A stretch of 56,690 nt of DNA from Thermoflexus hugenholtzii JAD2 (lineage in GTDB: Bacteria; Chloroflexota; Anaerolineae; Thermoflexales; Thermoflexaceae): assembly GCF_900187885.1 (NCBI RefSeq), contig NZ_FYEK01000072.1, forward strand, positions 1 through 56,690, in the 5' to 3' direction. Positions 14,059 to 22,725 of the stretch are shown here, in pieces (positions within the stretch are counted from its first letter, which is position 1; every line of letters starts with the position of its first letter). A program made the translations under genes and the position numbers. The notes below the pieces were generated by a model. The model saw only the letters and a list, made by a program, of their open reading frames with translations, ran no database searches and was not told where the DNA came from.

Positions 14059-14820
14059 CTATGGGAAGAGGGGGGAAAGCGGGGGCGTGGGCGGAGGGGA
14101 GAGCATCGGCGTGGGCGTGGGCACCGACGGAGGCGGCGGCTCCTCGGTCGGAGGGGCAGACGGCTGGGAGCCCCCCCCAAGCTCCTCCGTTGGGGATCCG
14201 CTTCGGGAGGGTGGGGCGGGTGTCGGGGATCGCTGCGGCTCCCTCTTAGGCGTCCCGGGTGGGATCGAGGGGGTCTCCAATGAAAGGGTGGGACGCTGGA
14301 TCTCGATCACCACCCATGGGGTTCGAAGGGCCGGCGATGGACCTTCCTCGGCGACCGCGAGCCCCCGCCCCCCGAACCGCACCGCGGGGAGCCCGAAGGC
14401 CAGGGTCATCGCCAGCCCGACTCCACCGGCGGTGGCCAGGGCGCGCTGCCAGGGCTTCCAGGCGTCCGGGAGAGCGGCCCCCGTGAGGACTGCCCCCGCC
14501 AGGGTGAACAGCGGCCCCTTCCCGATCTCCCGGGCGGGATCCGCTGCCAAGGCCGCAGCCGTCTGCCAGGCGCTCAGCCAAGCCCCCAGGGCACCCACGG
14601 CGGCGAGGAAGGCCAGGACCCCCAGGATCGGCCGAGCCCGGGGCGATCCCCGGATGGCCCAGGGCAGCCAGAGGGCGGGCACGCTGACCATCAGGACCAG
14701 CACCCCCCATCCGTCCAGCCCCCGGGCCGCAGGGCCTGCCCCCCAGGGGAGCATCGTCCCTGCCAGCATCAGGGCGGGCCCCAGCATCCGCAAGGCAGGG
14801 GAGGGCGTCTCCGCGTTCAT
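14059..14820 (-). CDS. Membrane protein with C-terminal Pro/Ser-rich tail
   Basis: A 253-residue protein. The first 150 residues contain four hydrophobic helices ([72 protein letters not shown]). The last 90 residues are an extended Pro/Ser/Thr tail, probably extracytoplasmic, ending with [11 protein letters not shown]. The ATG overlaps the stop of the nucleotidyltransferase-HEPN gene by 4 nt. No enzyme motif seen; family not recognised. Confidence 0.7.
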
Positions 14821-15605
14821 GGCTCCCGGCGCCCGGTGAGGGAATCGAGGAACGCCATCAGCGAGGTTCGAAGCTCCCGAAACGTCTCCGCCATCCGCTC
14901 CGCCAGCGGCCGACATCGCTCCCACTCCAGCTCGAATCCATAAGTATGGCGGAACAGATGTCGGAAACGAAGGTAATCCGAGAGGCGGGATCCCAGAGCG
15001 GGGTCGATCACGGCGGGTCGGGATTCCCCCCACGGGCTCATCATCCGCCACAGCAAATCGGTATGCCAGTGAGGGCCGGCAGGGAGGTCCCCGTCGATCC
15101 GCACCGCGATCCGCTCGAAGATCCGTTCGATGCCGGTGTAGAAATCGTGCAGGATGCTCCCGAGGCTGCGCAGGGCGAACTCGTCGGGCTCGCCGGTCCA
15201 GCGGCTCATCAGCCGCTCCAGGCTCTGGACCCGCCGCTCCAGCCGGGCGAGCTCCAGCGCGATCTCCCGACGCAGGGCTTCCGTTGGCTCGATGGGCATC
15301 TCCTCCTCCCCCAGGATATGGGCGCGCAGCGTGGGAGGGGCGCTCTCCAGGGGGATCAGGTCCAGCTCCATGCCCTCCGGGAGGAGCGCCCAGCACTCCC
15401 GCAGGGCGTCGAAGTAACGCTCCGGCGCCAGCCCTTCCACGGCGATATCGATGTCCGAGCGCGCGTGCCAGGGGCTCTGGCCGGCCAGGGAGCCGAAGAT
15501 AAAGACCCGTCGCGCCCCGAAACGGCGGCGTAACAAGTCCGCGCACGCCCGAGCCGCCTCCCAGGCCGCTGCCCGCCGGCTTTCCAGCTTCTCATCCTTG
15601 GCCAT
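14817..15605 (-). CDS. Single-chain MNT-HEPN fusion protein (nucleotidyltransferase + HEPN)
   Basis: A 262-residue protein joining two domains that usually form a two-gene toxin-antitoxin pair. Residues 1-100 are a minimal nucleotidyltransferase with GS (38-39), D51/D53 (SDIDIAV) and third carboxylate D82 (ELDLIPL). Residues 105-262 are helical with the HEPN signature R215-x4-H220 followed by Y222 (RHLFRHTYG). In the HepT/MntA pairs the nucleotidyltransferase adenylylates a tyrosine of the HEPN RNase; here both would act in cis. The ATG at 15605 has GGAG about 10 nt upstream. It overlaps the downstream gene by 4 nt. Confidence 0.8.
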   Translation of the reverse strand: MAKDEKLESRRAAAWEAARACADLLRRRFGARRVFIFGSLAGQSPWHARSDIDIAVEGLAPERYFDALRECWALLPEGMELDLIPLESAPPTLRAHILGEEEMPIEPTEALRREIALELARLERRVQSLERLMSRWTGEPDEFALRSLGSILHDFYTGIERIFERIAVRIDGDLPAGPHWHTDLLWRMMSPWGESRPAVIDPALGSRLSDYLRFRHLFRHTYGFELEWERCRPLAERMAETFRELRTSLMAFLDSLTGRREP

Positions 15606-15694: not shown

Positions 15695-16873
15695 TCATCC
15701 CTGCTTCTCCACGATCAGCGTCTTCAGGTAAAGGGTCTCCGGGATCTGCAGGATCCATGGGTGATCCGGCGGCTGATAGGTGACATCCCGGACGACCAGG
15801 CGGCAGCCCACGTCGGCTGCCGCCAGGCGGACGGCCTCGATCAGATCCTCCAGGCGGACCGGATAGGCGCACGAGGAGAAGAACAGCACCCCGCCCTCCT
15901 CCAGCAGGCGCAGGGCGAACGCGGCCATCTCCACGAACCGTCGGCGCACTCCCCGCTCCCATTCCGTCCGTCGTTTCACCATTGCGGGCGGATCCAGGAC
16001 CACGTGGGTGAACCGCCTTCCCTCCGCAAGCAACGCCTCCATCATCTCCAGGGCATCCCCCAGGCGGACGGTGATCCGGGAAGCCAGGCCGTTGCGGGCC
16101 GCGTTGCGCTCCGCCTGCTGCAACGCCCATGGGTCCTTGTCGATGACCATCGCCGTCGCCCCCGCGGCGGCCGCGTGGATGGCAAAGGTCCCGATGTAGC
16201 CGTAAACGTCCAGCACCCGATCCCCCGGCCGCACCATCCCTCGCAACCGCCGGCGGTTCTCCCGCTGATCCAGATAGAACCCGGTCTTCTGCCCGCGGAT
16301 CGCGCTGGTCTCGAAGACCAGCCCGTCCTCCTCCACCTCCAGCGGATCCGGGATCTCCCCCCACAGCCGGCCGGCCCGCGGCTCCAGCCCCTCGTCCTCC
16401 CGGGCCTCCACATCGCTGCGCTCATAAATCCCGCGGGGGGCGAAGCGCTCACGCAGCGCACCCACCAGGATCTCCCGCCAGCGCTCCATCCCCAGGTTCC
16501 GGATCTGCACCACCAGGACATCGCCGTAGCGATCGATGATCAGCCCGGGGAGCCCATCTGCCTCCCCGTGGACCAGGCGGACGGCGTTTGTGTCCCGGAT
16601 GCTCCTTCGCCGGTCGGCGGCCTCCGCCAGGCGCCTCCGGAGCCACCCCGAATCCACGGGCTCGTCCCCCCGGGTGAGCATCCGAAGGGGGATATGGGCC
16701 GCGGGGTTGTAGAACGCCCTCCCCACCAGCGTCCCCGTGGCGTCCCGAACCTCCACGACGGCCCCCGGCTCCGGGTCCCCGTGAACGCGGGCGATGTCAT
16801 CGTGGAAGGCCCATGGGTAGAAATTGCGGAGCTTGCGCTCCGCGTGGGGCTTGAGAACGATCCACGCCTTCAT
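15695..16873 (-). CDS. Class I SAM-dependent rRNA (cytosine-5) methyltransferase, RlmI-like
   Basis: A 392-residue protein of the RlmI/RlmK-type family, which methylate 23S rRNA cytosine. An N-terminal PUA-like RNA-binding region (MKAWIVLKPHAERKL, VVEVRDATGTLVGRAFYN) is followed by the EEDI-like central region (LPGLIIDRYGDVLVVQ, IRGQKTGFYLDQRENRR), then a Rossmann SAM domain with VLDVYGYIGTFAIHAAAAGA, the DPP motif in VVLDPPAMVKRR, and SSCAYPV. The ATG at 16873 overlaps the holA stop by 4 nt. The family is clear; the exact target base is inferred. Confidence 0.88.
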   Translation of the reverse strand: MKAWIVLKPHAERKLRNFYPWAFHDDIARVHGDPEPGAVVEVRDATGTLVGRAFYNPAAHIPLRMLTRGDEPVDSGWLRRRLAEAADRRRSIRDTNAVRLVHGEADGLPGLIIDRYGDVLVVQIRNLGMERWREILVGALRERFAPRGIYERSDVEAREDEGLEPRAGRLWGEIPDPLEVEEDGLVFETSAIRGQKTGFYLDQRENRRRLRGMVRPGDRVLDVYGYIGTFAIHAAAAGATAMVIDKDPWALQQAERNAARNGLASRITVRLGDALEMMEALLAEGRRFTHVVLDPPAMVKRRTEWERGVRRRFVEMAAFALRLLEEGGVLFFSSCAYPVRLEDLIEAVRLAAADVGCRLVVRDVTYQPPDHPWILQIPETLYLKTLIVEKQG

Positions 16874-20942: not shown

Positions 20943-21818
20943 TTAGGGGGCGGATTTCCCCTCGATGAAGCGCGCGATGGCCTGCATGAAGGCCTTCAGG
21001 TCCCGGATCGCCGGGAGAAGCAGCGCGCGAACCTGGGCGTGATCGATGTCCCAATACAGGTGGACCAGCCGGTTCCGCCACCGGGCCATCTGCGCCATGG
21101 CTTCCGCCAGCGCCTCCGGCAGGAAACCCGCCTGCCCCAGGACCCGAAAGACCTCCGCATCGCTCTGAGGGCGCCCCAATCCCATGTAGGCGACAATGTG
21201 ATGCCCGATGTCCAGCGCCGCTTCGATGGCCAACTGGAGAAAGCGCTCCGCGCTGCCGTAGCGATACGGATCCCCGCAGAAGCCCGAGCGATCCAAGGCG
21301 GCCAGCGGCTCCAGCAGCGCGAGGAACTCTTCCAGCCGAGCCATGCGATCTATCAACAAATCTCGATCGATCACCGGGCTTTCCCCCTTCCAGCGCTTCA
21401 GGGAGGTCCGGTTCAGGAGCTCCCGAAAGGGGCCCTCGTCCAGATAGGCTCGCATCGCCCGGGCTTCCCAATCCGCGCAGCGGCCGGGGTCCCGGCAGAA
21501 CAGGAGCTCCCGCTCCTTTAGAAGGGCGAACCGGCGGGCCGGCGGCAGCCTGTTCAGCAAGATCAGGTCGATCTCATGGCCCGGAAGGGCCTCCTCCAAC
21601 CGGGCCTGGAGATGATCCAGGAGCTCCGGGAACCGCGCGGGGGGCACATCCGGATCCACCCAGAGGGCGATGTCCACGTCGCTCAGGGCATCCGCCCGGC
21701 CGGCGGCCCAGGAGCCAACCCAATAAGCCCCGATCACCTCCGGGATGTCCACCGCCCGGATCATGGCATCCCGGGAGGGTGCCGGGATCTCGATTTCAGG
21801 CAGGCGACCCCGTCGCAT
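20943..21818 (-). CDS. Second single-chain MNT-HEPN fusion (MNT + HepT/DUF86-like)
   Basis: A 291-residue protein. The nucleotidyltransferase domain (residues 20-110) has GS at 35-36, D47/D49 (SDVDIALW) and D84 (EIDLILL). The C-terminal half (150-285) is HepT-like: helical, with [20 protein letters not shown] and the R248-N-x3-H253-x-Y255 signature ([13 protein letters not shown]), closer to classic HepT than the fusion at 14.8 kb. It is not a close duplicate of that protein. ATG 21818 is preferred over TTG 21824; it overlaps the end of ftsY by 23 nt. It probably works as a self-contained RNase/adenylyltransferase unit. Confidence 0.82.
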
Positions 21819-22725
21819 CCTCAAACAGCTCCTCTACAAAGGCGTCCGCATCGAAGGGCAGCAGATCCTCCAGCCCCTCTCCCACCCCCACAAACCGCAC
21901 CGGCAGGCCCAGCTCTCGGGCAATGGCGAAGACCGCGCCCCCCTTCGCCGTGCCGTCCAGCTTGGTGAGGATCAGACCGGTGACGCCCACGGCTTGATGG
22001 AACTCCCGGGCCTGCGGGAGGGCGTTCTGCCCGGTGGTGGCATCCAGCACCAGCCAGACCTCGTGGGGTGCGCCCGGGACCGCTTTCGCGGCGACCCGGC
22101 GGACCTTCTGGAGCTCCTGCATCAGGTTGTATTTGGTGTGCAGCCGGCCGGCGGTGTCCGCCAGGACCAGGTCGTAGCCCCGGGCGCGGGCGGCCTGCAG
22201 GGCGTCGAAGAGCACCGCGCCGGGATCAGCGCCGGGCTGCCCCCCGATGCAGGGCACGCCGGCCCGATCCGCCCAGATCTCCAGCTGTTCTCCCGCCGCA
22301 GCCCGGAAGGTGTCTGCTGCTGCCAGCAGCACCCGTCGGCCCTGCTGCCGGAAGCGGTGGGCCAGCTTCGCCACGGTGGTGGTCTTCCCCGAGCCATTCA
22401 CCCCGACCACCAGCACCACCTCCAGGGGATCCCGCCCCAGGTTCAACGGCGGGGGATCTTTGAGCAGGGCGCGCAGCTCCGCTTTCAACATCGCCCGCAG
22501 GTCCTCCGCCCGGGTGACCCCCTCCCGGCGGACCCGCTCTCGCAGGCGATCCAGGAGCTCTTGAGCGACCCGGACGCCCACATCGGCCTGGATGAGGGCC
22601 GCCTCCAGCTCCTCCCAGAGCGCCGGCGTGATCTCGGTCGCCCCCAACAGCTGCGCGATCCGTCCGAAGGCGGCCTGGCGGGTTCGCGCCAGGCCTTCCC
22701 GCAGGGCTTGCAGCATGCTCCGCAT
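21796..22725 (-). CDS. ftsY: Signal recognition particle receptor FtsY
   Basis: FtsY is the membrane-associated GTPase that docks ribosome-SRP complexes at the SecYEG translocon. The 309-residue form has the helical N domain (residues 1-95) and the G domain: P-loop [17 protein letters not shown], insertion box [16 protein letters not shown]3 [11 protein letters not shown]4 [10 protein letters not shown] and the closing [15 protein letters not shown]. The acidic A domain of proteobacterial FtsY is absent, as in many thermophiles. ATG 22725 is chosen because the frame upstream contains the promoter; GGAGGAG lies 11-13 nt away. Confidence 0.95.

Follow-up and report, generated by a model that had tools for sequence, protein, structure and literature searches.

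Type VII toxin-antitoxin systems of the HepT/MntA kind consist of a HEPN toxin and a nucleotidyltransferase (MNT) antitoxin, in which MntA-catalysed transfer of AMPs to the Tyr of the RX4HXY motif lowers the toxicity of the RNase (PMC7641770). The same AMPylation chemistry is described from L. pneumophila, for which release through the ATP level and a phosphodiesterase has been proposed, but where the catalytic residues of the HEPN protein are reported to be Q44/E47 and not the Arg and His of the motif (PMC11586414), so that RNase activity does not follow from an intact RX4H. The motifs RX4HXY and GSX10DXD were characterised in the families PF01934 and PF08780 (PMC7641770), outside which the HepT-like_2 (PF20797) pairs fall. 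Other families also include toxin-antitoxin genes that are fused (PMC11980606), and the MNT-HEPN combination in one chain was noted in papers of 2009 (PMC2701414) and 2013 (PMC3710099), in the latter case in a census where the MNT-fused HEPN domains typically lack the RNase residues. The first-pass annotation of the locus described here regarded the two parts as separate genes in HepT/MntA systems, which is right for the type VII pairs but overlooks the fusions noted in these two papers. In our literature search, which was thin on subscription journals, PF20797 or "HepT-like protein" was named in no paper found and an HEPN-MNT fusion was mentioned by that phrase in one paper. The MNT-HEPN fusion as such is already known; what appears to be new, judged from sequence, is a conserved single-chain clade in which both active sites are preserved.

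When analysing the window, i.e. the whole stretch of 56,690 nucleotides from the heat-loving bacterium Thermoflexus hugenholtzii JAD2, a gene on the minus strand with an ATG start at 15605 and its stop at 14817–14819 was found to contain both domains in one frame. This gene, its parts and a second fused gene are located as follows.

14817..15605, minus strand: fused MNT-HEPN gene, 262 aa in one open frame, also a single frame in 27 full-length homologues

15294..15566, minus strand: MNT (MntA-like nucleotidyltransferase) domain, aa 14–104, with GS38-39, DxD 51–53 and D82; matches to PF18765 and in PADLOC, profile and fold comparisons

14820..15290, minus strand: HEPN (HepT-like_2) domain with its leading helix, aa 106–262; PF20797 at 115 bits and HepT structural matches

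14940..14963, minus strand: RX4HXY motif RHLFRHTY, R215–Y222, from the translated frame and its conservation in the clade

15297..15314, minus strand: domain junction with Met103 (ATG at 15297–15299), immediately preceded by GGAGG-AGGAG; site of the former HEPN start, where translation might also begin internally

20943-21824, minus strand: second fused MNT-HEPN gene, P0002, with a TTG start and of class I type

A Pfam search placed HepT-like_2 at aa 148–255 (E 2.3e-33), its score being far above the curated cut-off of 27 bits, and Polbeta (PF18765) at aa 24–102 (30.7 bits, E 3.6e-7), also above the cut-off, and in PADLOC the MNT half alone matched the candidate models PDC-S09 (MNT models, E 7.4e-7). 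Among the NCBIfam models the one for MntA, NF047752, gave 30.4 of the 60 bits needed and thus fell below its cut-off, and the one for HepT, NF047751, did not match the 262-aa protein. The MNT motif reads GS-x11-DxD (GS-x10-DxD in the type VII definition) with the third carboxylate, D82, present, and the residue sets needed for HepT/MntA chemistry are all found in the fused chain. Every residue number given in the first-pass annotation (GS 38-39, D51/D53, D82 and R215-x4-H220/Y222 in one 262-residue chain) proved to be correct and the fused MNT-HEPN polypeptide that it had proposed is confirmed, both domains being recognised by Pfam over the cut-offs and by fold in the predicted structure.

For this prediction an alignment (A3) of 54 window and locus proteins was used as input to AlphaFold2, which returned a model (pLDDT 94.0, pTM 0.84) with a nucleotidyltransferase and a HEPN helical bundle linked by a loop at residues ~98–106. 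Structural matching of the model gave HepT toxins at Z 15.5–17.3 for the second half, residues 106–259 (7ae9_C with Z 17.3 over 142 residues, 6m6u_H with Z 16.2 and 5yep_B with Z 15.8), and the MNT antitoxin 8xeo at Z 9.8 for the first half (aa 8–99). A non-HEPN fold, which had been named beforehand as speaking against the reading, was therefore not what the prediction showed. A profile search of solved structures likewise connected the first half with S. oneidensis MntA (5yep, E 1e-6) and with the MNT protein 8xeh (E 8e-4); a search of solved structures with the single fused sequence gave no useful match. A further context for MntA fusion can be seen in PDB entry 9z7q, a solved structure that contains a Cmr1-MntA chain with an MNT domain, apparently within a type III CRISPR complex.

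Compared with type VII HepT/MntA (S. oneidensis SO_3166/SO_3165, A. flos-aquae, L. pneumophila) the fused protein has the same order and folds, with GS-x-DxD in MNT and RX4HXY in HEPN, and shows the same dispersed presence and absence. It differs in being a single chain with a forced 1:1 ratio, whereas the Shewanella complex is a two-protein hetero-octamer (PMC7641770), and in having a HEPN domain of PF20797, known here from sequence and of predicted activity, and not of PF01934/PF08780 (Class I). The split MNT/HepT-like_2 pairs belong to the same two Pfam families and are direct relatives but consist of two genes and mostly carry Asn at position 220. Earlier MNT-HEPN fusions (pAgK84, the HEPN-T and HEPN-M fusions of 2013, kanamycin nucleotidyltransferase, GlnE and DrrA) are likewise one chain but typically without the RNase residues (PMC3710099), which the clade described below keeps, and the HEPN-like C-terminus of kanamycin nucleotidyltransferase-type enzymes has no RNase motif, unlike here, where the motif is present and conserved. 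In CapRel (PMC9712102) antitoxin and toxin are also joined in one chain with presumed autoinhibition, but its toxSAS and pseudo-zinc-finger domains are unrelated and its trigger is a phage capsid protein.

Homologues were searched for in 100 related genomes and then by a scan of species genomes, with further members from Cyanobacteriota and Poribacteria added later. The related genomes yielded two kinds of locus, fused genes and adjacent MNT and HepT-like_2 genes, and the scan revealed fused homologues in Chloroflexota (including Candidatus Thermoflexus tengchongensis), Binatota, Acidobacteriota, Methylomirabilota, Cyanobacteriota and Poribacteria together with a partial one in Armatimonadota. 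The resulting clade comprises 27 full-length fused homologues from six phyla and two frame-broken copies (L010 and L166). All 27 retain GS, DxD, R215 and H220. Y222 and with it the complete RX4HXY is found in 26, and D82 in 24, the same number as for GS, DxD and D82 together; since the samples were chosen by similarity, the proportions given here and below should not be taken as estimates for whole populations. The residues GS38-39, D51, D53, R215, H216, R219 and H220 are invariant in a set of 15 fused homologues with 36–93% identity, and this together with the 27-member clade shows that the fused MNT-HEPN reading is not due to chance. Neither of the two other outcomes held against that reading, homologues that are consistently split or that lack the RNase motif, was encountered, as the gene is fused throughout one conserved clade.

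A tree made without the H220 column places the 27 full-length homologues and the two broken copies on one side of a branch with an SH-aLRT support of 86 (93 in a smaller set). To judge from the tree, the fusion of this clade arose once and then spread or persisted widely. An assembly artefact or a lost stop codon was also considered as the source of the fusion and ruled out, as the fusion is found in all full-length homologues, single-contig genomes included. On the sequence comparisons, the fusion is real and old and conserved across several phyla.

In the window the fused gene lies next to an RlmI-like methyltransferase gene (15695–16873, named from its sequence and not from a family search) and its stop codon is overlapped by the other neighbour, with ATGA at 14817–14820, so that the two may be translationally coupled. 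Judging from the open reading frames, the immediate neighbours look like housekeeping genes. In sister species, most clearly in G001 and G008, the same two neighbours are found ~220 bases apart with the fused gene absent, and G001 has its fused copy at another site. No neighbour is common to the fused loci of different phyla and hence no conserved partner gene was found; a search for phage or plasmid carriage gave no match in phages or viral contigs and only split or partial matches in plasmids, and a scan for promoters and terminators found nothing. The presence or absence of the single gene, together with the lack of a common neighbour, indicates that it behaves as a self-contained single-gene module.

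The published expectation for a HEPN domain fused to MNT (PMC3710099) is that of a mere substrate-binding domain of the nucleotidyltransferase, comparable to the kanamycin nucleotidyltransferase type, and such a role would be consistent with the housekeeping-like neighbours, with a third carboxylate in 24/27 members and with the match of kanamycin nucleotidyltransferase itself (1kny) to the HEPN half at Z 10.3. This value is, however, clearly below those of the HepT toxins (Z 17 vs 10), none of the NCBIfam resistance models matches the fused protein, and R215 and H220, without exception, and the Tyr, with one, have been kept although a substrate-binding domain would have no need of them, which makes this role unlikely.

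The junction between the domains suggests another alternative, that the gene has two products, the full-length fusion and a free HEPN of ~160 aa starting at Met103, the old HEPN start, from a Shine-Dalgarno sequence inside the MNT-HEPN linker. Met103 is found in 26/27 clade members at the position where the split HEPN proteins start, the shorter product would equal a split HepT-like_2 in size, and SD-like duplexes of <= -6 kcal/mol occur at 69% of the M103 sites vs 5% of the other Met codons in the same genes; in the window GGAGG is followed by a 5-base spacer and gives a duplex of -10.6 kcal/mol. Against this, the SD strength at Met103 is not above what is expected from synonymous codons (synonymous null, Fisher p 0.26), leaving selection on an internal SD unsupported, and several cyanobacterial members have no SD at this site and L184 has Ile instead of Met. 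Two products are on balance quite improbable, and the conserved Met103 and GGAGG may be a relic of a HEPN start or may still be one.

Some copies deviate in one of the two sites. In the closest homologue (L002; 1498-2262, minus strand, 93% identical, in a single-contig genome) Y222 is replaced by Asp and seven residues are deleted in frame with Arg and His intact, and in L003, L041 and L182 D82 is replaced by His; these four are either decaying copies or one of the two sites is dispensable. L002 is the case that speaks against a one-gene toxin-antitoxin system: unless this copy is decaying, the Tyr must be dispensable in some proteins. If AMPylation were the sole restraint, a chain with Arg and His intact but no Tyr to accept AMP should be toxic, and one must therefore reckon with a copy that is dead or with an MNT half that restrains the toxin sterically. 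Calculation of dN/dS for the closest pair of the genus (L001/L002) gave 0.13 for MNT and 0.30 for HEPN, and comparisons with L003 gave 0.14–0.23, all by simple counting; in the wider pairs the synonymous sites are close to saturated. That the gene is a functionless, decaying remnant of a toxin-antitoxin pair, kept by chance, to which the changes in L002 and L003 and the broken frames of L010, L166 and L042 might point, is very improbable, as both catalytic sets are conserved over six phyla and dN/dS is well below 1.

Split relatives of the family have the MNT gene first and the HepT-like_2 gene second, the two in most cases sharing the four bases ATGA in the manner of TA modules, and several such pairs are found in the source genome itself (L060, L097 and L103). 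At position 220, 64 of 96 split HepT-like_2 partners have Asn and 22 have His, the other 10 having Ser, Thr, Gln or Lys; none of the 96 lacks the motif Tyr. In these split toxins (e.g. L015, L018 and L052) the catalytic His is thus mostly exchanged for Asn with the Tyr universal, as if the modification had outlived the known RNase site. One split pair (L148, 2812-3707, plus strand) is carried by a conjugative plasmid of Gloeothece verrucosa beside a gene of the protelomerase family.

Further fusions exist within the family. In Poribacteria a second one (L186–L200) of ~320 aa has expanded greatly, a genome having as many as 7 matches and the copies often lying in tandem, and forms a separate clade with a support of 100 and with one split row inside; His is found at position 220 in 1/23 and is mostly replaced by Asn or Tyr. 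A cyanobacterial protein, L169, looks like a third fusion and has Asn at 220. That fusion goes with keeping His220 as a general rule was ruled out by these cases, and the association within the 27-member clade rests on one origin, so that Fisher p-values overstate it.

The annotation had counted two fused genes in the window and the second, P0002, holds up, as it scores above the NCBIfam equivalog cut-offs of the HepT and the MntA model. Relatives of P0002 that are likewise fused occur in the genus and class and RX4HXY is kept in 7/8 of those aligned. A profile-profile comparison with this class I fused family gave an end-to-end alignment with RHLFRHTY over RNRLVHLY. Two unrelated fused HEPN families are in this way situated ~5 kb apart in the window.

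The locus described here combines the domain content and fold of a HepT/MntA pair with two conserved active sites, a single fusion origin and no partner gene, and it is present or missing as one gene. We read it, with a probability of roughly 0.6, as a one-gene, 1:1 relative of type VII HepT/MntA that would keep itself neutral by AMPylating Y222. The HEPN half would be a HepT-type RNase with R215/H220 as its site and the MNT half would move AMP from ATP onto Tyr222 beside this site, so that the toxin would be made and silenced in a constant 1:1 proportion, whether the modification takes place in cis or from one chain of a HEPN dimer to the other, AMPylation of itself or of the dimer partner as the chain is made being the most economical reading.

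As the antitoxin of such a protein is not separately degradable or dilutable, release must come another way. The AMPylation might fail or be reversed (low ATP, a phosphodiesterase), a ligand acting as trigger might open the domain interface, by analogy with the fused CapRel, or free HEPN might be produced through proteolysis or an internal start. A more detailed proposal, a self-contained AMP-transferase with its own RNase target, intact since one ancient fusion and released without decay of an antitoxin, possibly with free toxin from Met103, is put forward tentatively and with some doubt.

The published rule that MNT-fused HEPN domains have lost their RNase site is qualified by these results, the 27-member clade and P0002 being exceptions to it, and the keeping of the site in one fusion clade and its loss from most members of a second, that of Poribacteria, offers a natural comparison within the same family. 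A single purified protein would permit a direct test of AMPylation state, RNase activity and candidate triggers. With toxin and antitoxin in one chain, freeing the toxin by loss of the antitoxin should not work, and selective degradation of the antitoxin can no longer serve as an explanation where a fusion fixes the ratio at 1:1 and both sites are conserved.
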